This document shows positions 3,878 to 23,912 of a stretch of 64,000 nucleotides of DNA, one piece after another. The notes under the pieces were generated by a model. That model was not told the origin of the DNA. It made no database searches and saw only the letters and a program-made list of their open reading frames with translations. Source of the DNA: Spongiibacter marinus (GTDB taxonomy: Bacteria; Pseudomonadota; Gammaproteobacteria; Pseudomonadales; Spongiibacteraceae); assembly GCF_016906995.1 (NCBI RefSeq), contig NZ_JAFBBD010000001.1, positions 434,001 through 498,000 of the forward strand, written 5' to 3'. Positions within the stretch are counted from its first letter, which is position 1. Each line of letters starts with the position of its first letter. Both the position numbers and the translations under genes were made by a program.

Positions 3878-4303
3878 ATGGCTATGACAATACATTGCGA
3901 CATCGTAAGTGCCGAAGAAGAAATCTTCTCCGGCCGCGCCAAGCTGATCGTTGCCAATGGCATTCAGGGTGACCTGGGTGTGACCTACGGTCACGCCCCG
4001 CTGTTAACCTCGCTCGAGCCCGGCCCCGTACGCCTCGTACTGGACAACGGCGAAGAGCAGGTTTACTACGTCTCCGGTGGCTACCTCGAAGTCCAGCCCA
4101 ATGTTGTGAGCATTCTTGCCGACACAGCATTGCGTGCCGACGACCTCGACGAAGCCGCTGCACTGGAAGCACAAAAGCAAGCTCAGCAAGCCATGCTGAA
4201 CCAAAGCGCCGACGTAGACTACTCGCGCGCTGCGGCTCAATTGGCAGCAGCCACTGCACAGCTGCGTACCCTGCAGCAAATTCGCAAGGCGATGGGCAAG
4301 TAA
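3878..4303 (+). CDS. atpC: F1 ATP synthase subunit epsilon
   Basis: Regulatory rotor subunit at the foot of gamma, which inhibits ATP hydrolysis. It is 141 residues: an N-terminal beta sandwich ([17 protein letters not shown], then [16 protein letters not shown] and [13 protein letters not shown]), followed by the C-terminal helical hairpin. It is the last gene of the atp operon, 39 bases after atpD, and is followed by a rho-independent terminator. In many gammaproteobacteria glmU comes next; here glmU is about 20.8 kb away. Confidence 0.97.
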
Positions 4304-4322
4304 TTCCCTTTGGGAGTTACAG

Positions 4323-4350
4323 AAAAAGGCGGCTTAGGCCGCCTTTTTTT
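4323..4350 (+). terminator. Rho-independent terminator of the atp operon
   Basis: GGCGGC (4328-4333) pairs with GCCGCC (4338-4343) around a TTAG loop, flanked by A5 upstream and T7 downstream. It lies 20 bases after the atpC stop. The A tract would also let it work on the opposite strand. Confidence 0.92.
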
Positions 4351-4479
4351 ATGCCTGCAAAACAGCCCTACCAACTCAACAATTCCCTTCCTTTCTATCA
4401 ACGTGTTCGCATCAATGTAGGAGCGTTTTGGCACTGCCTACCATCATAGTGGCTGTGACCGCGACCGATCCGAGTTACT

Positions 4480-4515
4480 TGTAGGAGCGGTTTTAACCGC
4501 GATCTTAACCGCGAT
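4480..4515. repeat. REP-like palindromic element
   Basis: GTAGGAGCGG followed by TTTTAACCGCGAT resembles the extragenic REP elements of pseudomonads and relatives (GTAGGAGCGGnnnnnnnCCGCGA). A second CTTAACCGCGATT follows at once, and a shorter GTAGGAGCG copy sits near 4419-4427. Family membership is by resemblance only. Confidence 0.5.
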
Positions 4516-4580
4516 TCCGATACGTGGTCCCTTTATGATGGCCCGCTGAAATATTCATTCTCCCAGATGCTGATACCAAT

Positions 4581-4880
4581 GGTTTCGCCCTGCTGGGCGA
4601 CCCCCTTTCTCTTTGCTTGCCCAAAGAGAAAGGGGGGAAAGACAATGTGTTTTCTGCATTGAGCGCCGCTCGTCGGCGACCCGAAGGGCGAAGGCATGCA
4701 ATGCCGAGTAAAAAGGCACCCCGCATCACTGTCGTCGGCTGGTCGCCGCCGATACCCTGCGCGCGGCGCTGCCCAAGCGGTCGCTGCGGAACTCGCCTAT
4801 CGGCTCAAACAGTCCTCGCTCTCATCCGCTTGAGCACCGCCGTGCTCGGCAGTGCTGAGGGGAGAGTTCGTCCGTGCCAG
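4581..4880. repeat. Hairpin-rich intergenic repeat block
   Basis: Two adjoining perfect hairpins start the block: TCGCCC/GGGCGA with a 4-nt loop (4585-4600), then a 15-bp stem CCCCCTTTCTCTTTG (4601-4615) pairing with 4622-4636 around CTTGCC. The GC-rich run after it contains more short inverted repeats. It resembles a widespread proteobacterial intergenic repeat whose open frames are often wrongly called as proteins. The 105-codon frame at 4617-4934 has low-complexity R/P-rich sequence and no ribosome-binding site, so I do not call it a gene. Confidence 0.45.
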
Positions 4881-5232
4881 AGATTTAGCTCCAATAAATA
4901 CTTGCCTAATGTGGAGCGAAAATTTAGGGTATAAACGCGACGCAGTTAAGGATGTCCTGCCCCCAATACCGAAGGAACGGTAAGAATTTTACTAAATTTC
5001 CTCCAACTTCCCTCGCTATTAACAAGGCAACCCACTTAACAGTTAAACCGAGCTTCTGTTGGCCCTATTAATGAACTCAGGGCTAATTAATTAGAGAATT
5101 AGTACTTTCAATAAAGCGGCGTAAAATAATGGCCTGAAAGTGATAGATGGCAGCTCGGTAATATTAATTATGAGGCCAATAGTCTGATAAACGAGCTGTT
5201 CGCTACTCGTCCCTGAATTTGGAGAATCACTT
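4881..5232. other. AT-rich gene-free stretch upstream of the SIR2/DUF262 unit
   Basis: There is no convincing coding frame or RNA gene here. Composition switches from the GC-rich repeat block to AT-rich sequence from about 4890, marking the probable left edge of acquired DNA. It must contain the promoter for the downstream pair, but I see no clear consensus boxes. Confidence 0.5.
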
Positions 5233-6279
5233 TTGAGAAAAAAACTATTTATAGCTCTAGGAAATGGGTTCACCGTTGACTTTCTCCATCATATAAACCG
5301 AGAGGGCGAGATTGATGTTGTAAATCTATTCAAGCGTGGCGCTGAAGTTCCATGGCCAACAACAGGCATGCCTGGTTTTTTATCGTTCAAACACTGCCCC
5401 CATCTTTGGAACCTTGGCGCGAGGCCGAACATGGATAATGACAGCGCAATGCAATTAATTGAGGATATAATCACCTGTGTAAATGTTTACGCATCAAAGG
5501 AGAAACGCAACCCTGTTGGCCATGAATATAGGCCTAATGATATATACATTTATGCCTACAAAGAATTGCTTCAATACTTGAAACATTTATTCATATTTTA
5601 TAATCGGAAAATTGAGGATATTCCGGACTCAGCTGAGAATTGGCCATGGTTAAAATTTATAAAATACGCAAACGAGAGCGACTATTACAGTGAAATAGTT
5701 ATAGTTACCTATAACTATGATATATGGCTTGAACGTGTTTTGCAGAAGTTCGATATACCCTTTAACGTTGGCATGATTGGCGAAAATGATCCCATGGTGA
5801 AAATTAATATATTGAAGCCTCATGGTTCTATAAGCTTCACACATAAACAAAAAATGGATAAAGATTCATATTTCATCAAGCTCAATAATGAACTTTTAGA
5901 TGGGTCAACAGACGAGTTTACAGTCAGCTACGAAAATCTAGATGATAATTATTTAGTAAGCGCTTTAATTCCGCCAGCTGGAGAATCCTCTAGATTTAAT
6001 CACACTTGGGCTTCGCAAATAAGAGGAACTGCAAAACACAAGGCAACACGCTTAGATAAAAACGACGAAATGATAATTTGTGGCCTTTCTTATTGGCATG
6101 TGGATCGAGCCGAGCTCGATGAGCTTTTTGTAAGCTGCGACCCCCTCCTAGACGTTACTATGATAAATCCAAATCCAAAGCGTACAATAAATGCTGTATT
6201 AACCAGTATATTTAGCAATTTTGTAACGTATTCTGGCTCTGCCACATTGAAGGAGAAAATAACATGTCAAGCATACTGA
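5233..6279 (+). CDS. SIR2-like domain protein, putative NAD-consuming defence effector
   Basis: 348 residues with features of the SIR2-like family: an N-terminal GNGFT nucleotide-binding turn (10-14), VTYNYD with N161, KPHGS with H197, ALIPP (244-248), a long helix, then IICGLSYWHVD (281-291) and INPNP (311-315). The Asn/His pair about 36 residues apart resembles the catalytic pair of defence SIR2 NADases. The TTG start at 5233 is set by GGAG 8 bases upstream. Its last 16 bases overlap the DUF262 gene, so the two are probably co-translated. The gene is AT-rich compared with atp and glmS. Family assignment is from motif recall; NAD cleavage and a role in phage defence are inference. Confidence 0.72.
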   Translation: MRKKLFIALGNGFTVDFLHHINREGEIDVVNLFKRGAEVPWPTTGMPGFLSFKHCPHLWNLGARPNMDNDSAMQLIEDIITCVNVYASKEKRNPVGHEYRPNDIYIYAYKELLQYLKHLFIFYNRKIEDIPDSAENWPWLKFIKYANESDYYSEIVIVTYNYDIWLERVLQKFDIPFNVGMIGENDPMVKINILKPHGSISFTHKQKMDKDSYFIKLNNELLDGSTDEFTVSYENLDDNYLVSALIPPAGESSRFNHTWASQIRGTAKHKATRLDKNDEMIICGLSYWHVDRAELDELFVSCDPLLDVTMINPNPKRTINAVLTSIFSNFVTYSGSATLKEKITCQAY

Positions 6280-7301
6280 GCCGAGAAACAAATACCATCA
6301 CAGTTGCAAACTTTTGGGAAAACTTTCTCCTTGATAAATATAATTTTGATCCTGCTTACCAACGAAAAAGTGTTTGGAGTGATGAGAAACAATCATTCTT
6401 TATAGATAGTGTTCTCAAAAACTTTCCAATGCCTCCAATATTTCTTCATCAAAAGATCGATGATGATACGGGTAAAACAAAGTACGATATCATTGATGGG
6501 AAGCAAAGGTTGACCTCTCTAATACGTTTTTTAAAAAATGAAATCCCAGCATCTGATGAGTTTGAAAATAGTCCCTTCTATGATGAAAATATTGCAGGTG
6601 TGTATTTTAGCGATTTGGATAAAAAAGGGCTCACAGAATACAAGAGAAAACTGTGGAGATATGTAATACCAATTGAATATATCGATACATCAGATAAAAA
6701 GGTTATTGATAATATATTCGATAGACTAAATCGTAATGGAGAACCGCTTAATGGCCAAGAGTTGAGAAAATCTGTATATCACGGAACAGGTTTGTTGCTA
6801 CTCGTAGAGAGAATCGCAGATTTGCCATTTTGGAAGGAAAGGCTATCAAAAACAGATGTTGCAAGAATGGAGCACTATGAGTTTGTATCAGAAATATTAT
6901 TTCAGTTAATCGAGGACACTCCCTTACACGCGAATCAACAAGAACTTGATGATTTGTACGAAAAATATGTTAATGAGACTTTAGATTGGAATGGCTTGGA
7001 ATCTAGATTCATTGAAGTGACAACTTATATTGAAAATATTGATATCGATTTTGATGCGTATCGAGTAGGTGGTGTTTCTCACTTGTACGGTATTTGGTGC
7101 TTGGCAAATAAATGTGTTCAAGAACGGATTCCTGTTGAAGATGTTAAGAATAAGTTGAATGATTTTTTTACGGAGCTACGATCCGGTAATATTGAAAATG
7201 AACACATAGATATTTATAAAAAAAGCATGTCAGCGAGAACTAAAGATCAAGGCCAAAGAAAGCGCAGGTTTCAAGCACTTTGGGATTATGTTGCTCTATA
7301 G
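6264..7301 (+). CDS. DUF262 (GmrS/ParB-like fold) protein, partner of the SIR2-like protein
   Basis: 345 residues. The N-terminal half has the DUF262 hallmarks: FDPAYQRKSVW (28-38), a helix ending in NFPMPPIFL (53-61), the IIDGKQRLTSL loop (76-86), and later FDRLNRNGEPLNGQELRKS. DUF262 domains have a ParB-like nucleotide-binding fold and occur in type IV restriction (GmrSD) and other defence systems. No DUF1524 HNH nuclease motif is visible in the C-terminal half, unlike full-length GmrSD. It starts inside the SIR2-like gene (16-base overlap; AAGGAG just before the ATG). It may sense modified or invading nucleic acid and trigger the SIR2 partner; that is inference. Confidence 0.78.
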   Translation: MSSILSRETNTITVANFWENFLLDKYNFDPAYQRKSVWSDEKQSFFIDSVLKNFPMPPIFLHQKIDDDTGKTKYDIIDGKQRLTSLIRFLKNEIPASDEFENSPFYDENIAGVYFSDLDKKGLTEYKRKLWRYVIPIEYIDTSDKKVIDNIFDRLNRNGEPLNGQELRKSVYHGTGLLLLVERIADLPFWKERLSKTDVARMEHYEFVSEILFQLIEDTPLHANQQELDDLYEKYVNETLDWNGLESRFIEVTTYIENIDIDFDAYRVGGVSHLYGIWCLANKCVQERIPVEDVKNKLNDFFTELRSGNIENEHIDIYKKSMSARTKDQGQRKRRFQALWDYVAL

Positions 7302-7573
7302 ACTTTAAAACTCAATGCTCTCGGACGCAGGCATCTAATCTGCGCTGGTGCTTGAAGGTTGAATGTCGAACAGCTTCTGTATGCTTATAGGGTGAAGTTT
7401 TTAGCACCCGCCTATCTCATTTCCGTAAGTTCAATAATCTACATTCGCGCGGCTCCCATAGCCGCGTGTACGGGCATCACCGCCATATCGGTAAATCACA
7501 ATCCTCTGGACTCTTTAACGCTCAGTGTTTATATTCATTTCCCGCCATCCGCAGAAAAATAGACACGATAATA

Positions 7574-8602
7574 ATGACGACAGCAACGCTCCTCCCTATC
7601 GATGGTTCAACCTTCTCTATCTCCTTACTGGACTTAGGAGAAAATTTTTTTGAACACAGAAAAGTAGATGTAAAAAATTTATACGACCGCTGCGAGATCA
7701 CAGCCGATCAGATTAACCGTAGCGATAGCTATATTTCAGGCTGGCAACTACGCGAGATGCTCCGCAGCTGTCGAGACATCGCCATTCCGGGCCAACCACT
7801 TTCCGTCTTACTTTCGGAGTTTGCGCCGATAACGGTACCTGGCGGTATGTTTGGATTAGCATCCTTCACAGCCAAAACAGTGGATCAGGCACTGAAATTA
7901 ATGGTTGACTACTCACATACCGTAATGCCCGCATATCACTTCGAAAGAATTGATAGCGGCGGAAAGTGCCACATAGTTATGCGTCCGGTCATCGATTTTG
8001 GTGATGTACAGCATTACTTAGATGAGGTTGTTGCAGGCTATTTTTTAAACCTGCGATATTTTTGTAATTTGCCTTTGCCTGCCCCAAGAATTCATCTGAC
8101 TCATTGCATTGAAAATGATATTTCCCGGTATGAATATCATTTCAAAGCGACCTTTGCTTTCTCAAAGCGCATTATTGAGGTAATTTTCGACAACCATCAT
8201 CTAATTCAACACCTTCACACCCATAACCAATCCACGTTTGAGCAGGTCTACGCTAGTTTAAAAACCGCTACCCCACCGTCGACGCCGTCATTATCCAGTA
8301 AAGTAAAAAACCTTCTTCGGCAACGACTCACTAAGGGCTTATCGATACATATCGCTCCTATTGCCGAACAAATGCATTATTCAGAGCGAACGCTCGCGCG
8401 CCACCTACAGAGCGAAAACACATCATTTCTTGAATTAAAACAACAAGTTTCGATCGAACATGCGAAGTTTTTACTAGCCAGCACCGACGATCCAATTTGT
8501 AAAATATCGCACGCTTGTGGCTATAACAGCGACTCCAATTTTTCACGCGCCTTCAAAAATTTTACCGGCAAAACACCCAAGAGATTTCGTCAAGATCAAT
8601 AG
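7574..8602 (+). CDS. AraC-family transcription regulator
   Basis: 342 residues from the ATG at 7574. The N-terminal domain resembles the arabinose-binding-type domain of OruR-like AraC proteins (FGLASFTAKTVDQALKLMVDY). The C-terminal 90 residues form two helix-turn-helices (IAEQMHYSERTLARHLQ and ISHACGYNSDSNFSRAFKNFTG, then TPKRFR). The frame extends to 7466, but the extra residues look non-coding. It lies directly upstream of the ferredoxin, P450 and GMC genes in the same direction and is probably their activator, as in known CYP153 clusters. The 272 bases before it hold nothing I can identify. Confidence 0.88.
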   Translation: MTTATLLPIDGSTFSISLLDLGENFFEHRKVDVKNLYDRCEITADQINRSDSYISGWQLREMLRSCRDIAIPGQPLSVLLSEFAPITVPGGMFGLASFTAKTVDQALKLMVDYSHTVMPAYHFERIDSGGKCHIVMRPVIDFGDVQHYLDEVVAGYFLNLRYFCNLPLPAPRIHLTHCIENDISRYEYHFKATFAFSKRIIEVIFDNHHLIQHLHTHNQSTFEQVYASLKTATPPSTPSLSSKVKNLLRQRLTKGLSIHIAPIAEQMHYSERTLARHLQSENTSFLELKQQVSIEHAKFLLASTDDPICKISHACGYNSDSNFSRAFKNFTGKTPKRFRQDQ

Positions 8603-8833
8603 GCTTAAAACCGTTGATATTGCCTGCTCTCCTCCTTATATATTTCAAATACTTTATCCGTAGTCCAAATCGGCGCACAATTTTTCGTTCCATCCAGATA
8701 ATTTCTCTCCTTGAGTTCCAACAGGCTGAGCATGCTGTCGTCTTATGAACAGGAATGGACTGAAAATGACAAGTCGTTCCAACCTATATTTCTTTCGACA
8801 ATATCAGCATTACCCAAAATAAGGAGAACGACG

Positions 8834-9154
8834 TTGATTGAACTCACTTTCATTGAACATAACGGCGAAGTACATAACGTACGCGCTGCACCTGGTACCA
8901 ATCTAATGCAGGCTGCGCTGGATAACAACGTCCCAGGTATTGATGCTGATTGTGGTGGTAGCTGTGCCTGCGGCACATGCCACGTTTTCATCGATACTAG
9001 CTGGATGGACAAAGCCGGCAAGCCCAGCGAATCGGAGTGTGCAATGCTGGAAATGACCCCAGAAAAAAACGAAATGTCCAGGTTAGCTTGCCAAATAACT
9101 GTTGAGACGCCTTTAAACGGATTGGTTGTAAAACTTCCAGAATTTCAGATGTAG
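8834..9154 (+). CDS. [2Fe-2S] ferredoxin, adrenodoxin/putidaredoxin type
   Basis: Small electron carrier that would pass electrons from a ferredoxin reductase to the P450. 106 residues from the TTG at 8834, chosen because AAGGAG (8821-8826) sits 7 bases upstream; a longer in-frame start at 8711 gives an N-terminus unlike the family. The cluster ligands are C40, C46, C49 (DADCGGSCACGTC) and C86 (RLACQI), matching the C-x5-C-x2-C...C spacing of putidaredoxin. It ends 17 bases before the P450 start. Confidence 0.93.
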   Translation: MIELTFIEHNGEVHNVRAAPGTNLMQAALDNNVPGIDADCGGSCACGTCHVFIDTSWMDKAGKPSESECAMLEMTPEKNEMSRLACQITVETPLNGLVVKLPEFQM

Positions 9155-9171
9155 CTCATCAGGAGATAGTA

Positions 9172-10449
9172 ATGGCAAATCAGCTAGACCCACAAAATAA
9201 TACCTTGCCGGATGCGACCAGTGTTCCCTTAGATAGAATCGATCTCAGCGATCCGCGTCTTTATTCACAACACAGGTGGCCGGAATACTTCCGGCGCGTT
9301 CGTGACGAAGACCCTGTGCACTTTCTAGAGGACAGTCCATTCGGTCCCTTTTGGTCTATTACTCGTTTTGAGGATATCGTTGCCGTAGACACCAATCATG
9401 AGGTTTTCTCTGCTGAACCTTTTATTATGATCGGTGACCCGGAGCCCGACCTCCCGCTAGAAAATTTTATTGCGATGGACCCGCCAAAACACGACGTTCA
9501 GCGCGCAGCGGTTCAACCAGTCGTGGCGCCGCGGAATTTATCGGCAATGGAGGGCCTCATTCGCGAAAGAATCGGCGTGATCTTAGATAATCTGCCGCTC
9601 AATGAAAGCTTTGACTGGGTATCTCGAGTTTCCGTCGAGCTAACCTCGCAAATGCTGGCAACGATTTTTGACTTTCCTTATGAAGATCGTCATAAGTTGC
9701 CGTATTGGTCTGATATTGCCACAGGCGCCCCCGAACTGTCGGGAGGCACCGCCGATAAAGAAGAGAGGAATGCGGCACTCCAAGATATGGCAGAAACGTT
9801 TTCGAAAATGTGGTTTCAGAAAGCGGCGCTAAGAGAAGCCGGACATGAACCCACCTTCGATTTAATTAGCTTAATGGAAGCTAATGCCGACACCAGAGAT
9901 ATGATCAATCGCCCTGCTGAGTTTCTTGGCAATTTAGGCCTGTTAATCGTCGGCGGCAATGATACAACTCGCAATTCGATCACAGGTAGTGTTCTAGCCA
10001 TGAACATGTTTCCAGGTGAGCTCGAGAAACTTAAGCATAATCCGGATCTAATCCCCAGCATGGTTTCCGAGATTATTCGTTGGCAGACCCCCTTGTCCTA
10101 TATGCGCCGCATAGCTAAATCTGACTTCAACCTCAATGGCAAATTGATCAAGAAAGGCGACAAGGTCGTTATGTGGTATATCTCCGGAAACCGCGATGAA
10201 AGAGTGATCGACAATCCTGATAAGGTAATTATTGATCGGCCTCGAGTGCGTCAACACCTATCATTTGGTATGGGAATTCACCGCTGTATGGGTAATCGGC
10301 TTGGCGAGATGCAGCTTCGAATTACCTGGGAAGAGATACTCAAGCGATTCGATAATATAGAAGTTCTTAAACAGCCAGAGAGAGTACATTCAAATTTTGT
10401 GAATGGTTATGTAAATATGCAAGTTAAAGTGATTCCTAAAGCCTCGTAA
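9172..10449 (+). CDS. Cytochrome P450, CYP153-like
   Basis: 425-residue soluble class I P450. The I-helix oxygen-activation motif GGNDTTR is at 261-267, the K-helix ExxR is in VSEIIRWQTP, and the heme loop FGMGIHRCMG has Cys372 as thiolate ligand. Long stretches (FIAMDPPKHDVQR, LLIVGGNDTTRNS, WEEILKRF) match the CYP153 family as I remember it. CYP153 enzymes hydroxylate the terminal carbon of alkanes and fatty acids or epoxidise alkenes. It has a GGAG ribosome-binding site and is co-directional with its ferredoxin. The true substrate is not readable from sequence. Confidence 0.9.
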   Translation: MANQLDPQNNTLPDATSVPLDRIDLSDPRLYSQHRWPEYFRRVRDEDPVHFLEDSPFGPFWSITRFEDIVAVDTNHEVFSAEPFIMIGDPEPDLPLENFIAMDPPKHDVQRAAVQPVVAPRNLSAMEGLIRERIGVILDNLPLNESFDWVSRVSVELTSQMLATIFDFPYEDRHKLPYWSDIATGAPELSGGTADKEERNAALQDMAETFSKMWFQKAALREAGHEPTFDLISLMEANADTRDMINRPAEFLGNLGLLIVGGNDTTRNSITGSVLAMNMFPGELEKLKHNPDLIPSMVSEIIRWQTPLSYMRRIAKSDFNLNGKLIKKGDKVVMWYISGNRDERVIDNPDKVIIDRPRVRQHLSFGMGIHRCMGNRLGEMQLRITWEEILKRFDNIEVLKQPERVHSNFVNGYVNMQVKVIPKAS

Positions 10450-10559
10450 TTATTATAACTAATCACCCTCCCCTTACGCCTCTATGTGATCGGATCTGGC
10501 ACGCTTATTATCACACAGGATTTTTCCTGAGAGGCTTTTTTACTATTTTGGCCGATATT

Positions 10560-12173
10560 ATGAATAAGTTCGATTATGACTATATTATCGTCGGTTCGGG
10601 TTTTGGTGGCAGTGTTAGCGCATATAGATTAAGCGAAAAAGGCTATAGTGTACTGGTCATCGAACAAGGAAAGCGATGGACTCCCGAGAATTTACCGTCG
10701 ACGAACTGGAAAATTTGGTCTTACCTTTGGCAACCAATACTAGGTTTGCACGGCTTTCTCCGGCTTCGTCTTTTTAAACATGTGATGGTCCTTCATGGCA
10801 ATGCCGTAGGTGGAGGCTCTATCACCTATGCCCAAACTCTGCTTATTCCCCCCGATTCAGTTTGGAATGATGGTGGCTGGTCGTCTCTTGATGATTGGCA
10901 GAATATCATGCCAGCGTACTATGCCATGGCCAAGAAAATGTTAGGCGTCACGCGCAATGAACGCGGAGCGGCGGCGGATGAAAAACTTCGGCAGATGGCA
11001 AAGGCGGCAGACGTAGAAGATAGCTTTTACTATACCGATGTTGGCGTTTTCTTCGGAGAAAAGCACGACGCACCTGGCACTGAATATAGCGACCCTTATT
11101 TTGGCGGCAAGGGGCCCTCTCGCAATTCCTGTATCGGTTGCGGTGGTTGTATGGTGGGCTGCCATTATAATGCGAAAAACAGCTTAGACAAAAACTACTT
11201 ATACCTGGCTGAACATAATGGCGTTCAGTTGCTTCCTGAAACGCGTGTTGTGGATGTATCACCACTGGGCACCTCCGGTGACGGTGAAGAGGGCTATCGT
11301 GTAAAGACGGTTAACAGCTTTGCTTTTTTTTCAAAAAAACCGAAATTCTATACTGCGCGATCGGTAATTTTTTCAGCCTCATCCCTAGGTACGCAAAGCT
11401 TGTTATTTGATCTTAAAGACAAGGGCTCGCTACCGAATATTTCCTCTGACCTAGGTAATCGCGTTCGTACTAACTCAGAATCAATATTAGGAATTCGTTA
11501 TCCCGGTACAGATGAGGACTTGTCAAAAGGTATCGCTATAGGTTCAGGTATCCACATAGATAAGAATACCCATATTGAAGCAGTTCGCTATCCCGACGGC
11601 TCCAACTTACTAAGCGGGCTTTTCACCGTATTGACTGGTGGCCGACCCGGTGTTGTGCGAATTCTATATTGGCTCAAAGCAATAATAAAACTACTATGCA
11701 CCCAGCCTATCAGTGGCTTGCGAAGTCTACTTCCATGGCGATTTTCACGAGAGACCGTGATCTTTCTGGTTATGCAAACCATCGAAGGGCATATCAACAT
11801 GCGCTGGAAACGTCGCTGGTATTGGCCCTTTTCTAAGAGCCTTAATAGTGAGGGGAAGCCTATCCCTACATTTATTCCGGAAGCCAATGATTTCACCGGC
11901 AAAGTCGCTCAGGCTACAGGGGGCATCGGACTAAGCTCATTATCGGAAATTGCATTTAACGTTCCTACGACCGCACATTGTATGGGCGGATGCGCTATGT
12001 CTGACTCACCCGAGACCGGCGTGATCGATGCAAAAAACCGCGTTTTTAATTATAAAAACCTCTACATCATCGACGGCTCTATGCTGTCCGCCAATCTAGG
12101 CGTCAACCCTAGTCTGACCATTACCGCTCTGGCAGAACGTGCCATGAGCTTCATTCCTAACAAAGTACAGTAG
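10560..12173 (+). CDS. GMC-family FAD alcohol/sterol oxidoreductase
   Basis: 537 residues. The N-terminal FAD fold is YIIVGSGFGGSVSAYRL (8-24) and the C-terminal GMC domain has AHCMGGCAMSD and LGVNPSLTITALAERAM, carrying the usual catalytic His/Asn. It resembles the cholesterol-oxidase/long-chain alcohol dehydrogenase branch. Cysteines at 191, 194, 197 and 201 (CIGCGGCMVGC) follow an iron-sulfur-like CxxCxxCxxxC pattern seen in this branch. It probably oxidises the alcohol made by the upstream P450. The start is ATG 10560 by comparison with relatives; an in-frame TTG at 10548 lies closer to GAGAGG and is an alternative. Confidence 0.85.
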   Translation: MNKFDYDYIIVGSGFGGSVSAYRLSEKGYSVLVIEQGKRWTPENLPSTNWKIWSYLWQPILGLHGFLRLRLFKHVMVLHGNAVGGGSITYAQTLLIPPDSVWNDGGWSSLDDWQNIMPAYYAMAKKMLGVTRNERGAAADEKLRQMAKAADVEDSFYYTDVGVFFGEKHDAPGTEYSDPYFGGKGPSRNSCIGCGGCMVGCHYNAKNSLDKNYLYLAEHNGVQLLPETRVVDVSPLGTSGDGEEGYRVKTVNSFAFFSKKPKFYTARSVIFSASSLGTQSLLFDLKDKGSLPNISSDLGNRVRTNSESILGIRYPGTDEDLSKGIAIGSGIHIDKNTHIEAVRYPDGSNLLSGLFTVLTGGRPGVVRILYWLKAIIKLLCTQPISGLRSLLPWRFSRETVIFLVMQTIEGHINMRWKRRWYWPFSKSLNSEGKPIPTFIPEANDFTGKVAQATGGIGLSSLSEIAFNVPTTAHCMGGCAMSDSPETGVIDAKNRVFNYKNLYIIDGSMLSANLGVNPSLTITALAERAMSFIPNKVQ

Positions 12174-12302
12174 ATTAAGAGGTGAAATATTTTTATTTAA
12201 CCAAAGCGAAAGCTAAGTTTATAAACGCAACGGATATGGTGGAGATTACCCGACTGTTCTCTTGGTTCGCAATGCTATGGCTGGCTAACCGGCCAGTCAT
12301 AT

Positions 12303-12329
12303 AAAAGGGGCGGCCCAGGCCGCCCTTAT
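12303..12329 (-). terminator. Terminator between the convergent GMC and DUF1348 genes
   Basis: GGGCGGC (12308-12314) and GCCGCCC (12319-12325) form a stem with a 4-nt loop. Read on the minus strand it is followed by CTTTTAT, so it best serves the leftward DUF1348 operon; a short AT run on the other side may serve the GMC gene. Confidence 0.7.
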
Positions 12330-12337
12330 CGCTATCC

Positions 12338-12814
12338 TTACAGCCCCAGCTCGCTCAAGCCCGGGTGATCATCAGGGCGACGGCCCAGCGGCCAGTGGAA
12401 CTTGCGGTCGGCCTCGCTAATCGCCATGTCGTTAATGCTGGCGTGGCGGTAGGCCATTAGGCCGCGCTCGTCGAACTGCCAGTTTTCATTGCCGTAGGAG
12501 CGATACCACTGACCGCCGTCATCGCGCCATTCGTAGGCAAAGCGCACGGCAATGCGGTTGCCGCTGTGGGCCCACACTTCTTTAATCAGACGATATTCCT
12601 GCTCGCGCTGCCACTTGTTGGCTAAGAACGCGATGATTTCTGCGCGGCCCACCGGAAAGTCAGCGCGGTTTCGCCATTGAGAATCTTCAGTGTAGGCCAG
12701 GGCGATGGCCTCGGGGTTACGGCTGTTCCAGGCATCTTCTGCCTTGCGGGTTTTCACTACCGCTTCTTCGTAGCTAAACGGGGGCAGCGGTGGGCGAGTA
12801 TTGGGGTCGGTCAT
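12338..12814 (-). CDS. DUF1348 / NTF2-like protein
   Basis: 158 residues of the nuclear-transport-factor-2-like fold, DUF1348 subfamily: [22 protein letters not shown], then [24 protein letters not shown] and YGNENWQF. No catalytic function is established for the family. Three consecutive ATG codons follow AAGGA; the third (12814) has the best spacing and begins like its relatives ([13 protein letters not shown]). An ATG at 12850 directly after the upstream stop would add 12 residues. Third gene of a leftward operon with the FMN-binding and AhpD-like proteins. Confidence 0.85.
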
Positions 12815-12850
12815 CATCATTTCCTTGTGCTTGGCTATTAGGGTTGGCAT

Positions 12851-13438
12851 TTACTGTTGGTTGGGGTCTACGCCGAGTTCGCGCAAGCGCTGCTCGACCA
12901 TGCGATCAATATCCGCGTCGGTATAACGGGGGGTGATGTGCTGGGGGCAGTTCCAGTCAAAGGCGGCAATGTGTATCAGCACGCCGCGCTCAATGCGGGC
13001 GCGGTAGTTCGGGTCCAGCAAGGCCTGTAAGCGCGCATCATCTGGGTCGATAAACTCCAACCGCCCCGCCACTTTCAGACGGCGGCGGTTTGGGTAGTCC
13101 ATCAAAAACAGCGACACGCGATTATTGCTCTGCACATTGCCAGCACTGATGTACTGGCGATTGCCACGATAGTCGGCAAAGCCCAGCGTCGCCGCGTCCA
13201 ACACTTTGATAAACCCCGGCGGGCCACCGCGATGTTGCACATAGGGCCAGCCCGACTCGCTAACGCTGGCCATATACAGGCTGTCGCGCTGACGAATAAA
13301 TTGCGCCTCCTTGTCGCTGAGCAAATAGTTGTAGTCCTCGCCCTGCTCCATTCGCGCATAAGTGTCGCGGCTGCGGCCCTGGCTTTGCAGCGCTTTGGCG
13401 GCGGGGCTAAACATTAGCTTGGCGTAGCGGTGTCCCAT
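12851..13438 (-). CDS. Pyridoxamine 5'-phosphate oxidase-like FMN-binding protein
   Basis: 195 residues of the FMN-binding split-barrel superfamily: YMASVSESGWPYVQHRGGPPGFIKVLD, a middle strand RVSLFLMDYPNRRRLKVAGRLEF, and the C-terminal helix TDADIDRMVEQRLREL. Members of this subfamily are generally flavin- or heme-binding reductases of unknown substrate. A GGAGG ribosome-binding site lies 7 bases before the ATG. Its stop abuts the DUF1348 gene. Confidence 0.85.
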   Translation of the reverse strand: MGHRYAKLMFSPAAKALQSQGRSRDTYARMEQGEDYNYLLSDKEAQFIRQRDSLYMASVSESGWPYVQHRGGPPGFIKVLDAATLGFADYRGNRQYISAGNVQSNNRVSLFLMDYPNRRRLKVAGRLEFIDPDDARLQALLDPNYRARIERGVLIHIAAFDWNCPQHITPRYTDADIDRMVEQRLRELGVDPNQQ

Positions 13439-13496
13439 GGTGCTGCCTCCGGTGGCCCCTTGCCCTCGACTGCCAAGGGGCCGTGGCTGAAAACGC

Positions 13497-14051
13497 TCAG
13501 GCAGCGCCTTGGCTCAGGCTCAGTTCTACCGTGGGGAAGTCGATCTCCACCTCGCTGGCCTTGCCGATGAATTTGGTCAGAATGTTCATGCCAACGTGGG
13601 TGATAATCTCCACCACCTCCGCGTCGCTGTAGCCCGCGCTGTGCAGCTCGGCGATCTCGGCGGCGGTGACACTGCCACTGTGTTCAACCAGCGTATTGGC
13701 AAACTTCACCGCCACCGCGGCTTTGGCATCCTGGCTGCCACCGGCGCGATTGGCGGCAATTTCGTCGCCGTTCAAACCGGCCTTGCGACCAATGGCCGTG
13801 TGCGCCGACACGCAGTACTGGCAGGCATTTTGTTGAGCCACCGCCAGAGCGATGCGCTCGCGGGTAGCCGGCGGCAACTCACCCTCACCGGCAATACCGT
13901 GCAGGCCGAGAAAGGCGCGCAGCGCCGCGGGGGAATTGGCAAAGATCTTCAGAAAATTTGGCACCATGCCCAGCTTTTGTTGAATTGCATCAAGCAACTC
14001 TTGCTGCTCGGCACTGGCGTTGTCATGGTCGATAATAGGTAAACGGCTCAT
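13497..14051 (-). CDS. AhpD-like / carboxymuconolactone decarboxylase family protein
   Basis: 184 residues of the all-helical AhpD fold. The redox motif CQYC with the following SAH (about 97-103) is the peroxidase-type active site; GMVPNFLKIFANSPAALRAFLGL is the family's N-terminal signature. It probably reduces peroxides or receives electrons from a thiol donor. First gene of the leftward operon, divergent from the LysR gene, whose product probably controls it. Confidence 0.88.
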   Translation of the reverse strand: MSRLPIIDHDNASAEQQELLDAIQQKLGMVPNFLKIFANSPAALRAFLGLHGIAGEGELPPATRERIALAVAQQNACQYCVSAHTAIGRKAGLNGDEIAANRAGGSQDAKAAVAVKFANTLVEHSGSVTAAEIAELHSAGYSDAEVVEIITHVGMNILTKFIGKASEVEIDFPTVELSLSQGAA

Positions 14052-14195
14052 CGTGGCATCCTCAAGTAAGTGGTTTGGTGCAGCTACCGCCGTAACTGCC
14101 CGACACCGCTACCTTGCCGAATTTCACATAGAAGAAGAATCGGCGTACATTGCAATTCATTATTACTTTAACCGGAATAATGGCGCGCAAGACTT

Positions 14196-15104
14196 ATGGA
14201 CAAATTTCACTTGCTTAAGGTGTATGTGGCCGTTGCCGAAGCCGAGGGCTTTGCCGCCGCCGCGCGGCGTTTGGAGCTGTCGCCCCCCGCCGTTACCCGC
14301 GCCATTGCCGCACTTGAAGATAACCTGGGCGTAAAGCTGTTGCAGCGCAGCACCCGCTACGTGCGCACGACCGATATCGGCAGGCGTTATCTGGACGATG
14401 CCAAACGGATTCTTGCCGAGCTGGAGGCCGCCGACCACACCGCAAGCGGGATCAACACCGAACCCCAGGGCCAGCTCACCGTCACCGCGCCCGTACTGTT
14501 TGGGCGGCGCTTTATTACGCCCAGTATTGTTCGTTACCTGGAGCGCTATCCCAAAACCACGGTAAATGCCGTGTTTCTCGACCGCGTGGTTAACCTGCTG
14601 GAAGAAGGGATTGATGTCGGTATACGCATTGGCGAGCTGCCGGATTCGTCACTGCGCGGCCGCAACGTCGGCAGCGTGCGTATGGTGGTCTGCGCCTCGC
14701 CGGACTACTTGCAGCGCTATGATCGCCCAGAACGCCCGGACGAACTGCGCAAGCACAGCTTGATCGCCTCACTGGCGGTTGGCGAAAACCAGCACTGGCA
14801 CTTTCAATCGCCGGACAAAGCCCGCGCGCAACAGCGCATTACGATTGCGCCACGACTCACGGTCACAACGAATGATGCCGCCGTTGAAGCGGCCGTGAAT
14901 GGGCTGGGGATTACCCGCGTATTGTCCTACCAAGTGGCCGACGAGGTCGCGGCAGGCAAGTTAGAAATACTACTGGAAGACTATCAACCAGCCGCCAAAC
15001 CGATCACCATTCTCCATCGAGAAGATCGCAATCCAGCGGTAAAGGTTCGCGCCTTTATTGATATGTTAGCTAAAGAACTTGCGGGCCATTCAGCTCTACA
15101 TTAA
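14196..15104 (+). CDS. LysR-family transcription regulator
   Basis: 302 residues. The N-terminal winged helix-turn-helix (FAAAARRLELSPPAVTRAIAALE, about 17-39) is followed by the LysR substrate-binding domain (QGQLTVTAPVLFGRRFITP onward). It is divergent from the AhpD-like operon across a 144-base gap that includes an AT-rich stretch near 14150-14180, the classic LysR arrangement with its target. Convergent with the EamA transporter, overlapping it by 4 bases. Confidence 0.93.
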   Translation: MDKFHLLKVYVAVAEAEGFAAAARRLELSPPAVTRAIAALEDNLGVKLLQRSTRYVRTTDIGRRYLDDAKRILAELEAADHTASGINTEPQGQLTVTAPVLFGRRFITPSIVRYLERYPKTTVNAVFLDRVVNLLEEGIDVGIRIGELPDSSLRGRNVGSVRMVVCASPDYLQRYDRPERPDELRKHSLIASLAVGENQHWHFQSPDKARAQQRITIAPRLTVTTNDAAVEAAVNGLGITRVLSYQVADEVAAGKLEILLEDYQPAAKPITILHREDRNPAVKVRAFIDMLAKELAGHSALH

Positions 15105-16006
15105 CGCGCTTGACCGTGTTTTCGTAGCGGCTGCAAGGCAATGATATTTCCGGCCAGCATTAATGTACCACCCAATAATATTGCCCAGTCGAACGCCTCG
15201 GCGTACAGCGCCACACCCAATAGCGCTATCAATGGCAAACGCAAAAAGTCCAGCGTAACTACCACACTTACCTCGGCATAGTGCATGGCCTTGCTCATGC
15301 AAAAATGTGCCGACAACGCCATAAGGCCTATCAGCAGCAACCACCCCCACTGCCCGGAATCAGGCCACTGCCAGTGGGCAATCGACAGGGCAAAACCAAT
15401 GGGTAACTGCACCAGACACATATAAAAAATAATTGTGAACGGCGAGTCGGCACCGCCGAGTGCTTTCGTGCAGGTGTGAGAAACGGCGTAGCCAATGGCC
15501 GCCGCCAACACAATAAGCGATGCGCTATCGACAATGCTGTAGCCCGGCTGAACAATCACCAACACGCCCAGCAGGCCCATCAAAATGGCCAATAATTTTC
15601 GGCGCGTTATCGCCTCGTTTAAGGCAACGGCGGCAATCAGCATCGTCCAAAACGGCACGGTAAATTCCAGCGCAAACACCTCGGCTAATGGCAGCAAACC
15701 AATGCCGACAAACCAACCGTACTGGCCGCCAAAGTGAAAAACATTGCGCAGCACATGCAAACCCGGGCGCTGACTGCGCAGCCGCAGCGCTGATGACGCT
15801 AAGTGGTTTGAGTGGGAAAACCTGGCCACCAGCATAATCAGTAACAAACACAGCAAACCGATAGCGCTGCGAAAGAACAGTTGCTGGTGTACGGCAATTT
15901 CGCCGCTCAGCTCACGCGCCGATATCGCCATTGTGCTGAACGACGCCAAGGCGCCAGCCATCCAGGCCGCCGCGCGGGGCGTTTGTTGATGATGAAATGC
16001 GTCCAC
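15101..16006 (-). CDS. EamA/DMT-family inner-membrane transporter
   Basis: 301 residues with ten hydrophobic segments in two EamA-type halves, the drug/metabolite transporter pattern. Conserved pieces include PLAEVFALEFTVPFWTMLIAA and ALLGVALYAEAFDWAILLGGTLMLAGN. It probably exports a small metabolite; the substrate is unknown. It follows rsuA in the leftward direction after 16 bases, so the two may share a transcript. Confidence 0.9.
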   Translation of the reverse strand: MDAFHHQQTPRAAAWMAGALASFSTMAISARELSGEIAVHQQLFFRSAIGLLCLLLIMLVARFSHSNHLASSALRLRSQRPGLHVLRNVFHFGGQYGWFVGIGLLPLAEVFALEFTVPFWTMLIAAVALNEAITRRKLLAILMGLLGVLVIVQPGYSIVDSASLIVLAAAIGYAVSHTCTKALGGADSPFTIIFYMCLVQLPIGFALSIAHWQWPDSGQWGWLLLIGLMALSAHFCMSKAMHYAEVSVVVTLDFLRLPLIALLGVALYAEAFDWAILLGGTLMLAGNIIALQPLRKHGQAR

Positions 16007-16022
16007 TGCCGTCTTCGCGTCC

Positions 16023-16748
16023 TTACGTTGGCGGGGCAGTATATCGCGCTATCGCCGCAAGCTCTTCACTACTCAACAAGCGGCTTTCACCCAGGGCTAA
16101 GTCCGCCAAGGCTACCGGCCCCACCGACTCGCGATGCAGTGCCAACACCTCGTTATCAAAAGCGCCGAACATCCGCTTCACCTGGTGGTACTTACCCTCG
16201 GTAAGCGTTAGCCGCGCCGTGGTGGCCGACAGAATCTGCAACTGCGCGGGCTGAGTGGTAATGCCCTCATAAGCAAAATAAACACCGCGCTGAAAGGCAT
16301 CGATATAGTCCTGGGAGAGCGGCGTGGCCACCTCCACCCAATACACCTTGGCGAGCTTCGTTTCCGGCAAACTGATACGCCGCGACCAGCCGCCGTCATT
16401 GCTAAGCAACACCAAACCCGTGGTATTAAAGTCCAAGCGACCGACGAAATGCAGCTCCGCCTTGCGCGGGTGATCCAGCACATCAATCACCGTGCGGTGA
16501 GCATCATCCTTCGTCGCGCTCACCACCCCTTTCGGCTTATTCAAGGCAATATACAACGGTGAGTCCGCTTGCAGGCACAGCCCATCCACTTCAACGCGAC
16601 TAAAGCGATCAATACGTTGGTTAATCGACTGGGCCAGCTCCCCATCCACCAGGATACGCCCCTGCGCCAATAACAGCCGCGTATCCGACATAGCGAACGC
16701 CGTATGCTGGCGGATGAAACGGTCGAGGCGAGTCGTGTTGGCAGTCAT
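16023..16748 (-). CDS. rsuA: 16S rRNA pseudouridine synthase RsuA
   Basis: 241 residues. The N-terminal S4 RNA-binding domain (TRLDRFIRQHT, then LLAQGRILVDGE) is followed by the synthase domain with catalytic Asp106 in GRLDFNTTG, and the RsuA-typical LTEGKYHQVKRMFGA. It converts U516 of 16S rRNA to pseudouridine in the enterobacterial homologue. The next gene rightward is divergent, separated by about 180 bases. Confidence 0.93.
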   Translation of the reverse strand: MTANTTRLDRFIRQHTAFAMSDTRLLLAQGRILVDGELAQSINQRIDRFSRVEVDGLCLQADSPLYIALNKPKGVVSATKDDAHRTVIDVLDHPRKAELHFVGRLDFNTTGLVLLSNDGGWSRRISLPETKLAKVYWVEVATPLSQDYIDAFQRGVYFAYEGITTQPAQLQILSATTARLTLTEGKYHQVKRMFGAFDNEVLALHRESVGPVALADLALGESRLLSSEELAAIARYTAPPT

Positions 16749-16925
16749 GCGCGTATTATTGCGGGTAGATGGGGACCCGCTTTGGTAATTATCGTGTAAG
16801 TACCTTTGGCGACGGGCAATAGCTTGACCTGATTTGAATAATAATGGCGGCTATTCATAAACGCACAAGCGTATCTTGCGTGAGGTTATAAATCATAATA
16901 TCTAAAGTTGCGGGAGATAATAATA

Positions 16926-19427
16926 ATGGAGTCGCGGAAGTTATTGCTAGGCAGTGCTATTAGTATTGGTCTGCTTAGTGTTGGGAGTACAGCAGTCGCT
17001 GCTCCTATGCTCGAGGAGGTGATTGTTACAGCTCAGAAAAAATCTGAGAGCACGCAAGACACACCAATCGCAATTACCGGTATGTCGGAGAATCAACTGG
17101 AAAAATTTGGATTTTCTAGCGCTAATGACATATCGGCCCAGGTGCCAAATATGCAAGTTAGTGGCCCTTACGGAGAAGTACAGCCGATTTTTTCGGTTCG
17201 CGGCGTTAGCATGTCGGACTACAGCTCAAACCAAGCAAGCCCAATAGGTGTGTATAACGACGAAGCATATATGGGTGCCGTGTATACCCATGGGATGAGT
17301 TTTTTTGACGTAGCTCGGTTGGAGGTATTGCGCGGTCCTCAAGGAACACTGTACGGCAAGAATACTACGGGTGGAGCTATCAATATTGTTACGAAAACTC
17401 CGCAGATCGACGATGGTCTTCACTTCGATGCTAAGCAGGGAGTTGGGAACTACAACAGCCATAAAGGCGATTACGGTGTAGAGGGTACGTTAGTCCAAAA
17501 TAAGCTGGCTGCGAGGCTTGCTTACTCTTATTCGCGTCGCGACGGCTATTATAAAAATGCGCTTGGCGGACCTGATCTATCTCAGCAGGATTTCCAGGGT
17601 GCGCGCCTAGTACTTAACTATGATATGACAGATCATATCAATATGGTCTTCAAGTATACCAAGGCAAGAAACGACGCCTTGGGTAGCCCCAGTCGCAATG
17701 AACCGCGTGGCAGGTTGGCAAATAATCCGGCATTGGTGACTGCGTTAGAGACGTCTGGGGTCGGTGTCTACGATCAGCCTAACAATGGATATATCGACAA
17801 TACCGGCTACTCCCGGCCTGCGAGGGGCTTAGACTATTACGAGGTTGAGGATAACTACACTGGTGCTTTAGTGGTTAATTTAGACCAGTACGTGCATAAA
17901 ATAGATTATATCCATGATGCCTTTACGGTTACCTCGGTTACGTCTTACACCGACAATGATTATGCGCAACAGCAAAATGTAGATGGTAGTCCTGATGGGC
18001 TTCTCGAAATCGATTGGGCGGTCGCTACCCAGGCATTTAGCCAAGATCTACGGATATCGACGACGTTTAAAGAGGATTTTGATCTGATAGCGGGCGCTTA
18101 CTACCAGTTCGAAGATCAACAGCTAAACAACGTTTATCGATTGTATGAAACGCCGCCGGATACGCGTGTAGCAGCTACCTTCCCAGGGGTTGGGGGTTAC
18201 TATCCATATCTACTGGATTTTGGTGCGCTCGACCAAAAAATGGAAACTGAGAAAGAGAGCTTTGCACTCTATTCGCAGATGCGTTGGAACGTCACCGCGG
18301 ACTTTGGTATTGATTTCGGCGTACGCTATACCGACGACAAGATAGACCTCCCCTATTTAAATATCTCACGCGTGGGCTATGACGGATCGCCCAGGGGTAC
18401 CTAAGTTCCAGGGAATAATACGGGTGTTGATAATATCTTCATTCCAGCAAATGTAGCGGGGCAAAGTCCCTTTGAGCCTGGGGTGTTGATACAAGAGCTC
18501 CTCGCCGGAGAAATAAGTGTGAATGACCTTTTGCTAACGGCACAAACTGGCTATACCCACGGTCCCTACACCGAGGAGTCAGCGACCCTGCTGAGTGCTC
18601 AGGAAAAAGAATGGACCGGAAAAATAGGTATGGACTACCGTCTGAATGATTCCCTGATGGTATATGGCTCATATAGCAAAGGCTTCAGAGCGGGGAACTT
18701 CAATGCTGGCGTGTATTACGAAGAGCGTGAATTTGAAGACGCCTATGCCGCTCCTGAATTCCTGGATGCTTATGAAATAGGCATTAAAGCTGACTTTTGG
18801 GATCGGCGCGCTCGCATCAATAGCGCGTTCTTTTACTACGACTACACCAACCAACAATTTATCAACGTAGTCGGGGTGTCTAACTTTCTTGAAAACGCGG
18901 GTGGTTCTAAGATCATTGGCTTTGAATCTGAAATGTTTTTCGCGATAACGGAAGCGCTTACCGTCCAGCTAGGTATGGGAATTCTTGAGACGGAATATAC
19001 CGAACTGGAACTATCAAACGTGCAAACGGTTAACGATGACGATGATATTGTGGATCTCTCTGGTAATGAGTTGATTTCAGCACCCAAGATCAGCGCAAAC
19101 GTATCAATCGATTGGGAAATATTCAGCAATAACGCTGGCTACCTGAGTATGAATCTGAATGGTAATTACCAAGACGACCAATGGTATAGCGCTTACAACG
19201 ACAAAATTGGCTACGAAAATATAAAGCAGGATGCCTACGCAATATACAATGCGCGGTTTACCTGGTTTAGTTCCAATGACGACTACACTATTGCTATTTG
19301 GGGAAAAAACATCACTGAAACTAAATACGATAGTTACGCGATTAATCTACAGGCTGGTTTCGGGTTCGATTATTACCAACAGGGCGCGCCGGCAACCTAC
19401 GGTTTAGAAATGACATATCGTTACTAA
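16926..19427 (+). pseudogene. TonB-dependent receptor interrupted by one in-frame TAA
   Basis: Outer-membrane siderophore/substrate receptor of the FecA-like TonB family. The ATG at 16926 follows GGGAG; a signal peptide, the TonB box region LEEVIVTAQKK, the plug (LEVLRGPQGTLYGKNTTGGAINIVTK) and barrel strands follow. Codon 493 is TAA (18402-18404). The same frame then continues without a break (VPGNNTGVDNIF...) to a proper C-terminal strand ending in MTYRY at 19427, 834 codons in all. The lesion is therefore a single nonsense codon, not a frameshift. It precedes the small secreted protein, the isomerase-like protein and the ferredoxin reductase. It may be a pseudogene, a sequence error or a readthrough case. 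Confidence 0.85.
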
Positions 19428-19464
19428 AATCGATTTATTATGATTTGATAATAGGGTTATAAAA

Positions 19465-19878
19465 ATGAAAATAAAAAATTATATTTATACGCTTATAACA
19501 ATTTTTTTACTAAGTTCAGCAAATTCTGCGAGTAGTATGGGTATTCCCGTCGTCAGTGGCGGTTCGCTGGGCTCCTTAATACCGGTGGGTGTTTTGTCCC
19601 AGGTAGATGGGTTGTTTATTGGCCGCGATATCCCGGTGTTAAGTGACCTCGTTTTGGTGGAAGACCTCCCTGTTGTTGACGGCAGAGGCATACCGGTTAT
19701 TAGAGGTGTTGATGAGTCGCTGAGGATTAGCGAGGGGCTGGTTGCGGTAGTCCTTGGAAACCAAAACCTTGCAGCTAGTGAGTCGCTTCCGGCAACTGAC
19801 CCCTTGTTCATTATTGAGCTACTGTTGCCCCCCGATGCTCTGGTCAACGTAATTTCTATCAATGAATTATTTTTTTAA
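19465..19878 (+). CDS. Small secreted protein with repeated IPV-type motifs, unrecognised
   Basis: 137 residues. An N-terminal lysine pair and hydrophobic stretch (YIYTLITIFLLSSANSASS) make a clear Sec signal peptide. The mature part repeats a short hydrophobic unit: GIPVVSGG, LIPVGV, DIPVLSD, LPVVDG, GIPVIRG, spaced by about 12-20 residues, then an acidic, hydrophobic tail. It has no cysteines. I do not recognise a family. It sits between a TonB receptor and the isomerase-like membrane protein in the same direction, so a periplasmic role in uptake or handling of the same substrate is possible, but that is a guess. Confidence 0.6.
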   Translation: MKIKNYIYTLITIFLLSSANSASSMGIPVVSGGSLGSLIPVGVLSQVDGLFIGRDIPVLSDLVLVEDLPVVDGRGIPVIRGVDESLRISEGLVAVVLGNQNLAASESLPATDPLFIIELLLPPDALVNVISINELFF

Positions 19879-19903
19879 TTAGCGTAAATAATGAGATGTT
19901 GGC

Positions 19904-20383: not shown

Positions 20384-20396
20384 ATTGGGGGTACCT

Positions 20397-23103: not shown

Positions 23104-23163
23104 CGACCAATATTGCGTATGATGGTCGGCGCACCGCAACAGACTGAATAAGGAAGCATCACC

Positions 23164-23892: not shown

Positions 23893-23912
23893 TCGTTAAC
23901 CAGGGCAGCAAT

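Follow-up and report, generated by a model that had tools for sequence, protein, structure and literature searches.

We analysed a stretch of 64,000 nucleotides from Spongiibacter marinus (contig NZ_JAFBBD010000001.1, positions 434,001 to 498,000 of the forward strand), hereafter the window, which carries a pair of overlapping genes encoding a SIR2-like protein and a DUF262 protein. Coordinates refer to the window unless a locus is named, and the features of this SIR2-DUF262 pair are the following:

5233..6279, + strand: gene 1, SIR2-like protein, predicted NADase (nicotinamide adenine dinucleotide-degrading) effector, 348 amino acids, TTG start
6264..7301, + strand: gene 2, DUF262/GmrSD_N protein in which no HNH domain was found, 345 amino acids, ATG start
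6264..6279, + strand: overlap of 16 bases between the end of gene 1 and the start of gene 2
5190..7355, + strand: unit common to the window and Amphritea sp., the nearest relative, 88.8% identical (blastn)

A first-pass annotation had described the pair as AT-rich, co-directional and overlapping by 16 bases, and coordinates, strand and drop in GC content all agreed with this (0.36-0.38 over the pair in 1-kb windows vs 0.51-0.55 over the upstream atp genes). The overlap had the same length in three related loci (L006, L007 and L008), in which the TTG start chosen by our script also occupied the same place, and it may couple the translation of the two genes.

Relatives of gene 1 were searched in a species genome collection using a two-row alignment, yielding 39 loci from many bacterial phyla and one archaeon (Methanimicrococcus), with hosts including Amphritea, Endozoicomonas, Photobacterium, Shewanella, Vibrio, Klebsiella, Pseudomonas, Paenibacillus, Flavobacterium, Butyrivibrio and other Clostridia, Nitrospirae, Calditrichaeota and Acaryochloris. 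A DUF262 gene was located directly downstream on the same strand in 35 of these 39 loci (some of which are close kin), counting one whose DUF262 gene was cut by a contig end (L021) and one whose DUF262 frame was broken (L036). The four remaining loci comprised one in which gene 1 reached the contig end (L040), two with gene 1 fragments (L042, which had no DUF262, and L043 at about 110 nucleotides from a contig end) and one with a distant relative at 24% and no DUF262 (L044). Where gene 1 was unbroken (31 loci), spacing between the two genes ranged from -17 to +5 nucleotides, with an overlap in 25 of these loci (script-chosen starts), and the trees of the two proteins were correlated over 31 loci (r 0.82, with none of 5000 permutations as high). 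For the reverse search, we ran a DUF262 profile on viral contigs: among the best 80 of 183 loci, the SIR2 family was present in just 4, which were the four best full-length matches (38-49%), two of them near-identical to L022 and L026. A single-sequence scan of viral contigs, with patterns other than the conserved ones, retrieved no relative, and none was found in phage records searched with gene 1. The plasmid search with gene 1 returned a frame-broken homologue on a Sulfurovum plasmid (51% identical, DUF262 adjacent) and, from Carnobacterium, a plasmid-borne relative at 24% with no DUF262. Using a Klebsiella query that contains the pair against 5426 complete E. coli genomes, we obtained matches in 38, with at least 80% of the query covered in 26. 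Chance juxtaposition was ruled out by the 35 of 39 loci; the pairing is far beyond chance, and the co-occurrence expected from the first-pass annotation recurs widely, in this collection as well as in viral contigs and E. coli. Among close kin of its host the pair was rare, being present in 1 of 18 genomes of the genus (the window's own, with no pair in the 17 others), 1 of 21 of the family and 2 of 369 of the class, namely its own and one weak partial match at 30%. In the family of genome G416, it was found in 2 of 397 genomes, G416 itself and a new pair with DUF262 present (G619).

The only Pfam family matched by gene 1 was SIR2_2, at an E-value of 0.0024 and under the curated cut-off, so that profile hidden Markov models supported the SIR2 identity proposed at first pass weakly for the window protein but well for its family, 26 of whose 32 members matched SIR2_2 at E<=0.01. 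An AlphaFold2 model (predicted local distance difference test [pLDDT] 90.4, predicted template modelling score [pTM] 0.90) has the SIR2 fold and bears this identity out. Searched against known structures, the model matched SIR2-HerA first, then KomC and human SIRT2, all within an E-value of 0.001, with ThsA, yeast Hst2 and DSR2 just outside; of the 39 PDB chains at E<=0.001, 33 carried titles of SIR2-HerA, SIR2, KomC/KomBC or SIRT2, and the other 6 came from one entry titled trimeric HerA. As root-mean-square deviations were high and template modelling (TM) scores moderate (0.35-0.56 by query length over 50 result rows), gene 1 is a distant branch of the SIR2 fold. We then aligned 32 relatives by script, leaving out L004, L036, L044, L045 and every frame shorter than 280 amino acids. 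GNG (10-12), D16, N161, D163, K195-P196, H197, PP (247-248) and S286-Y287-W288 were invariant and F13 near-invariant, which upholds the motifs first read from the window protein (GNG, F13, N161, H197 and PP). In a weak profile match to the SIR2-HerA protein 8w9l (E-value 0.067), N161 and H197 lined up with its TNYD and HGS motifs, and by analogy they are the putative catalytic residues; in the V. cholerae SIR2-HerA system (Nezha), changing the active-site N168 or H227 abolishes immunity (PMC11559045).

For gene 2, Pfam returned GmrSD_N (DUF262) at an E-value of 7.5e-29 and, at E<=1, no HNH or DUF1524 family, in agreement with the DUF262 identity and the absence of HNH reported at first pass; neither gene 1 nor gene 2 matched NCBIfam at E<=1. 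The protein comprises a ParB-like N-terminal part with YQR, DGKQRL and FDRLNR motifs and a C-terminal half that is helical in the predicted model (pLDDT 90.5, pTM 0.78). YQR (32-34), W38, DGKQRL (78-83) and FDRLNR were invariant in 35 relatives (L045 left out of the alignment), the first three of these being the core motifs already picked out from the single sequence. Using Foldseek, the nearest structures were Noc, BrxU and ParB, at E-values of 1.5e-3 to 1e-2 with none at or below 0.001, and PDB sequence searches with DUF262 gave chance-like matches only.

Four loci had a broken SIR2 frame beside an intact DUF262 frame (L003, L014, L037 and L039), which fits gene 1 as the costly part of the pair, and gene 1 was also broken or partial in L036, L042 and L043. 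A programmed frameshift was considered, with L003 and L014 breaking at nearly the same place, and rejected because the breaks differ. Those in L014 and L039 fall at runs of A, where assembly error is possible, and that in L003 falls elsewhere; we read all three as decay or assembly error. Both genes are under strong purifying selection, with ratios of nonsynonymous to synonymous substitution rates (dN/dS, NG86) between the window and Amphritea of 0.076 for gene 1 and 0.085 for gene 2.

The pair moves as a unit. We used positions 4300-8600 as a blastn query against a set of seven sequences that included L006 and L007: the unit shared with Amphritea starts 43 nucleotides before gene 1 and stops 54 nucleotides after gene 2, and outside 5190-7355 the query showed no match between window and Amphritea at E<=1e-3. 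A tRNA-Arg gene and a tyrosine integrase adjoin the pair in both E. coli loci that were read (L046 and L047); a scan of the window for tRNA genes found none. The tRNA-Arg island of these two loci also holds an integrase and insertion sequence remnants, and about 7 kb past the pair in E. coli strain 744 begin genes annotated as afimbrial adhesins (bmaE/afaD). In the closest genus member (G008), positions 7471-12034 join 16776-24337 directly and in opposite orientation; because of this junction, the segment from 7471 to about 16775 appears to be inverted between the two genomes, which would put the pair at the edge of the inversion.

The strongest clue to function is the linkage of the pair to cytosine-5 (C5) restriction-modification (R-M) genes. 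We surveyed the neighbours of 38 loci, with L003, L004, L005, L044 and L045 left out (L003 was also left out of A5). The nearest 135 open reading frames (ORFs; at most 2 on each side) included 16 C5-cytosine methyltransferases and 6 members of the NgoMIV family (Pfam, E<=1e-5); that the recurrent neighbours are integrases was rejected, as Pfam shows C5 methyltransferases. When every flanking ORF of at least 90 amino acids was included (401 in total), motif and BLAST searches yielded 20 C5-type ORFs in 18 of the 38 loci, a linkage newly observed here, and the count of 16 among the nearest ORFs agreed between the two approaches. The number of such loci expected was 0.28, calculated from 82 PF00145 matches in about 154.5 Mb of the same genomes, some of these matches being pieces of one gene. 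As a control, the same queries gave a C5 match in 7 of 76 viral DUF262 loci lacking this SIR2 (Fisher p 8e-6 vs 18 of 38), a loose comparison in that the sets differ in kind and the methyltransferase queries were taken from pair loci; given these seven, the link is an enrichment and not exclusive. N6/N4-type enzymes were searched by motif in the 401 ORFs, yielding two of more than 150 amino acids, of which the SPPYW protein of L009 was credible and that of L041 was judged spurious, and 48 PF01555 matches exist in the same genomes. A general defence-island explanation of the methyltransferases was rejected, since N6 types should then come too (20:1 vs 62:47, Fisher p 4e-4; a rough test, as the detection methods differ, PF00145 matches include pieces and loci are related). 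In seven genomes (G391, G393, G394, G397, G402, G412 and G414), the pair-linked methyltransferase was the sole PF00145 match.

Of the 18 loci, 14 also had an identified restriction enzyme next to the methyltransferase; none was identified in L008, L035, L036 and L042, where not every neighbour was scanned. Enzymes and layouts (M, methyltransferase; R, restriction enzyme) were as follows:

Restriction enzymes by profile: NgoMIV in L019 and L033; Bse634I/Cfr10I in L010; EcoO109I in L030
Restriction enzymes by profile: NgoFVII in L017; HNH in L014 and L039; type II models in L011, L021 and L026
Restriction enzymes by BLAST to the L033 enzyme: L029, L031, L032 and L034
Layout M-R-(Vsr)-SIR2-DUF262 on one strand: L029, L031-L034 and L039
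Layout M-R-M-SIR2-DUF262: L030
Layout SIR2-DUF262-M or SIR2-DUF262-M-R: L008, L010, L014 and L017
Other layouts: convergent in L011 and L019; divergent in L026 and L036; further upstream in L021 and L035; fragments in L042

In 11 of the 18 loci, the genes lie on one strand with no intervening ORF of at least 90 amino acids, and on this ground they may form operons. At 38% identity, the methyltransferases (19 ORFs, the L042 fragment left out) fell into two larger families and four singletons. Mapped on the DUF262 tree (35 rows, 15 with the trait), the linkage required at least 7 changes, with 7 of 2000 shuffles as low, and is thus clustered on the tree but arose in more than one event. Single loci showed further arrangements. 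L032 encodes a 612-amino-acid fusion (L032:5712-7547) of a C5 methyltransferase (1-329) with an NgoMIV-type restriction enzyme (316-612), the latter at 58% to the separate L033 enzyme, and this fusion is followed by Vsr and then by the pair. In L017, a frame of 766 amino acids (L017:7367-9664) has two tandem C5 methyltransferase matches and adjoins the NgoFVII-type enzyme. In L026, the pair is followed closely downstream by an AbiU gene (L026:10210-11925; PADLOC E-value 1.7e-170; Pfam AIPR), and a Type IV methyl-directed restriction enzyme (PADLOC E-value 2e-215) lies near the archaeal pair (L041:10517-13666).

DUF262 domains form a nucleoside triphosphate (NTP)-binding pocket and serve modification-dependent enzymes, including GmrSD for glucosylated 5-hydroxymethylcytosine (glc-5hmC), BrxU for 5-methylcytosine (m5C), 5hmC and glc-5hmC, and SspE for phosphorothioate, and in several systems SIR2 domains bring about NAD+ depletion (PMC10952713). 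Because of these roles, DUF262 would be a DNA-reading switch and SIR2 a killing effector, and the proposal made at first pass, that DUF262 senses phage DNA and SIR2 depletes NAD, fits the predicted folds and the conserved residues. The pair is thus probably a mobile two-gene anti-phage abortive-infection system, with DUF262 as a switch responding to a DNA trigger and SIR2 as an NAD-depleting effector. Gene 1, once on, would break down NAD+ through an active site holding N161 and H197, and gene 2, as a putative ParB-like DUF262 NTPase, would hold gene 1 off until the trigger is met on DNA. As the pair lies repeatedly beside type II R-M systems that make m5C, and would often share an operon with them, this trigger is most likely either the modification state of DNA, with cytosine sites left unmodified or modified wrongly, or restriction failure, in which case the pair would act as a second, suicidal line behind restriction. 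If m5C were the trigger, the linked methyltransferases would be toxic, and if its absence were, genomes with no methyltransferase would suffer; because both simple m5C triggers conflict in this way, the trigger may vary by clade or be restriction failure, sensed as cut or protected DNA or as anti-restriction proteins rather than as the mark itself. More tentatively, the pair could be an NAD-depleting suicide module wired into C5 type II R-M, in which DUF262 reads the state of cytosine methylation or restriction, much as related proteins read glc-5hmC, m5C or phosphorothioate, and signals to a SIR2 NADase and not to a nuclease, such that an infected cell in which restriction has failed would die. 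It would be, to our knowledge, the first system to couple the sensing of DNA modification to a metabolic effector in place of one that cuts DNA.

Several observations weigh against the main interpretation of a two-gene abortive-infection system. No C5 methyltransferase was present in the flanking DNA of 20 of the 38 loci, including the window and Amphritea (several of these loci are on short contigs), and 12 of the 38 host genomes had no PF00145 match at E<=1e-10, so that the pair does not in general require the genome of its host to be methylated. C5 methyltransferases were also absent from the further pair loci L003, L096, L098 and L179, and none occurred within 14 kb of the G619 pair. Away from the pair, two PF00145 matches are present in the window's genome; the C5 link, being absent from the window's own locus, is not visible there. 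On two Rhizobium plasmids (L088 and L089), distant DUF262 genes (27% and 23%), for which no SIR2 is annotated, have N-6 DNA methylase genes as neighbours, and one of them also has a BsuBI/PstI-type restriction enzyme nearby. Specificity for C5 is therefore not general among DUF262 genes, whose association with R-M may extend beyond this pair. In addition, distant gene 1 relatives (24%) had no DUF262 in L004 and L044, both genes are broken in L036, so that gene 1 is not singled out there, and the Foldseek matches of gene 2 were weak (TM-score by query 0.22-0.30 in the top ten).

Among alternatives, the one that survives best, though we consider it unlikely, is an ordinary variant of Menshen or PD-T4-2, or a system named elsewhere, with SIR2 as the effector. 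Using PADLOC models, gene 2 matched NsnA (which we take to be a Menshen component) at an E-value of 7e-37 over most of its length and PD-T4-2_A at 8.3e-26 over residues 25-236, and both models matched all 35 DUF262 members (best E-values 4.4e-43 and 3.7e-28). Gene 1, however, matched general SIR2 models of PADLOC only, weakly (best E-value 6e-6), and no PD-T4-2 model; for the nuclease partners of Menshen, the neighbours in other loci were compared through the 25 of 163 PADLOC families listed and 10 scans. The DUF262 gene of Menshen is tied to a predicted OLD nuclease, and in its available text the same review mentions no SIR2 partner for NsnA or PD-T4-2_A (PMC10952713). Among 5.39 million open-licence papers, this review alone names both DUF262 and SIR2, and its available text treats them separately. 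PADLOC-DB 2023 gene models gave no exact named match to the pair (DefenseFinder and REBASE lay outside this search). Word searches of titles and abstracts in the open-licence literature (preprints, subscription journals and supplements lying outside) found no paper on a SIR2-DUF262 pair, no title or abstract on such a pair with cytosine methyltransferase or type II terms, and nothing relevant on NsnA by name. The first-pass annotation had likewise known of no named two-gene system of this kind.

Other known systems resemble the pair in part. SIR2-HerA (Nezha) also has two genes and a SIR2-fold protein (modelled chains mostly of 340-430 amino acids), is the best structural match and shares the aligned N and H motifs in the weak profile match; in contrast, its partner is a HerA helicase where DUF262 is found here (35 of 39 loci), and identity to gene 1 is 12-16% in the structural alignments of ranks 1-20. 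Thoeris differs in that gene 1 has no Pfam match beyond SIR2_2 (no SLOG) and its partner is DUF262 and not the TIR protein ThsB, TIR being absent among the 25 of 147 neighbour families listed; ThsA types other than the SLOG form also exist. DSR1 and DSR2 are single large proteins with SIR2 at the N-terminus, unlike the 348 amino acids of gene 1. AbiH (Pfam PF14253), a single-gene abortive-infection protein, was weakly matched by 2 of 32 gene 1 relatives at E<=0.01 (best 0.0021), with no match for the window protein. The type IV restriction enzymes GmrSD and BrxU (DUF262-DUF1524) share the DUF262 N-terminal domain with a DGxQR-type motif; gene 2, by contrast, has no DUF1524/HNH match and a helical C-terminal half, and its effector is a separate SIR2 protein. 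SspE, a phosphorothioate-sensing DUF262-DUF1524 protein, similarly works with a DNA-modification system (PMC10952713), but the pair is linked, in 18 of 38 loci, to type II cytosine-5 methyltransferases, and its effector differs.

Somewhat less probable than a variant of a known system is a role in addiction or R-M maintenance, with a SIR2 toxin held by DUF262 and freed when host methylation falls after loss of R-M, which would secure the element rather than counter phages. The one-strand M-R-(Vsr)-SIR2-DUF262 layout of several loci, the tight coupling of the two genes, the four loci with SIR2 broken and DUF262 intact and the mobile-island setting of both E. coli loci read would all suit such a role. 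We count against it that other solved SIR2 relatives are phage-triggered effectors. The 20 of 38 loci with no C5 methyltransferase in flanking DNA argue in the same direction, as does the anti-phage activity of the Nezha SIR2 protein (PMC11559045). Quite improbable, in our view, is a regulatory or modification enzyme near R-M, in which the SIR2-fold protein would modify a target (by deacylation or by ADP-ribosylation of protein or DNA) or make a signal, with DUF262 guiding it. The fold of gene 1 does match human SIRT2 and yeast Hst2, and its sequence is far from solved SIR2 NADases (best PDB sequence match at an E-value of 0.042), but its nearest structures are anti-phage SIR2 proteins and the distribution of the pair is patchy, mobile and R-M-linked. 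An HNH toxin of the GmrSD type was rejected, as Pfam gave no HNH match.

Around the pair, the window shows the end of the atp operon upstream (recognised from its ORFs, with no search) and, downstream, an AraC-type regulator with ferredoxin, cytochrome P450 and cholesterol oxidase genes. The cholesterol oxidase (10548-12170; NCBIfam NF058674, E-value 9.9e-304) neighbours a SolI-related P450 as well as a ferredoxin of the 2Fe-2S type, and these genes are a probable steroid-using cluster. The block containing them (7471-16775) has 99.8% DNA identity in G008, with 96% for the atpC region. Directly after the Amphritea pair, L006:10144-10791 encodes a protein of 216 amino acids with an E-x-K pattern, which we take to be reminiscent of PD-(D/E)XK nucleases.

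Systems joining a sensor to a SIR2 effector are known already; new, in the sources searched, are the unusual DUF262 partner and the unexpected R-M link, since several defence systems are known to use SIR2 effectors and several to use DUF262 proteins, but the two were not found paired in those sources. With the pair present in E. coli, testing in laboratory strains is possible at once. If the R-M linkage is functional, it would reveal how programmed NAD loss serves bacteria as a backup to restriction, and it would make testable whether DUF262 domains are general readers of modification state plugged into different effectors.

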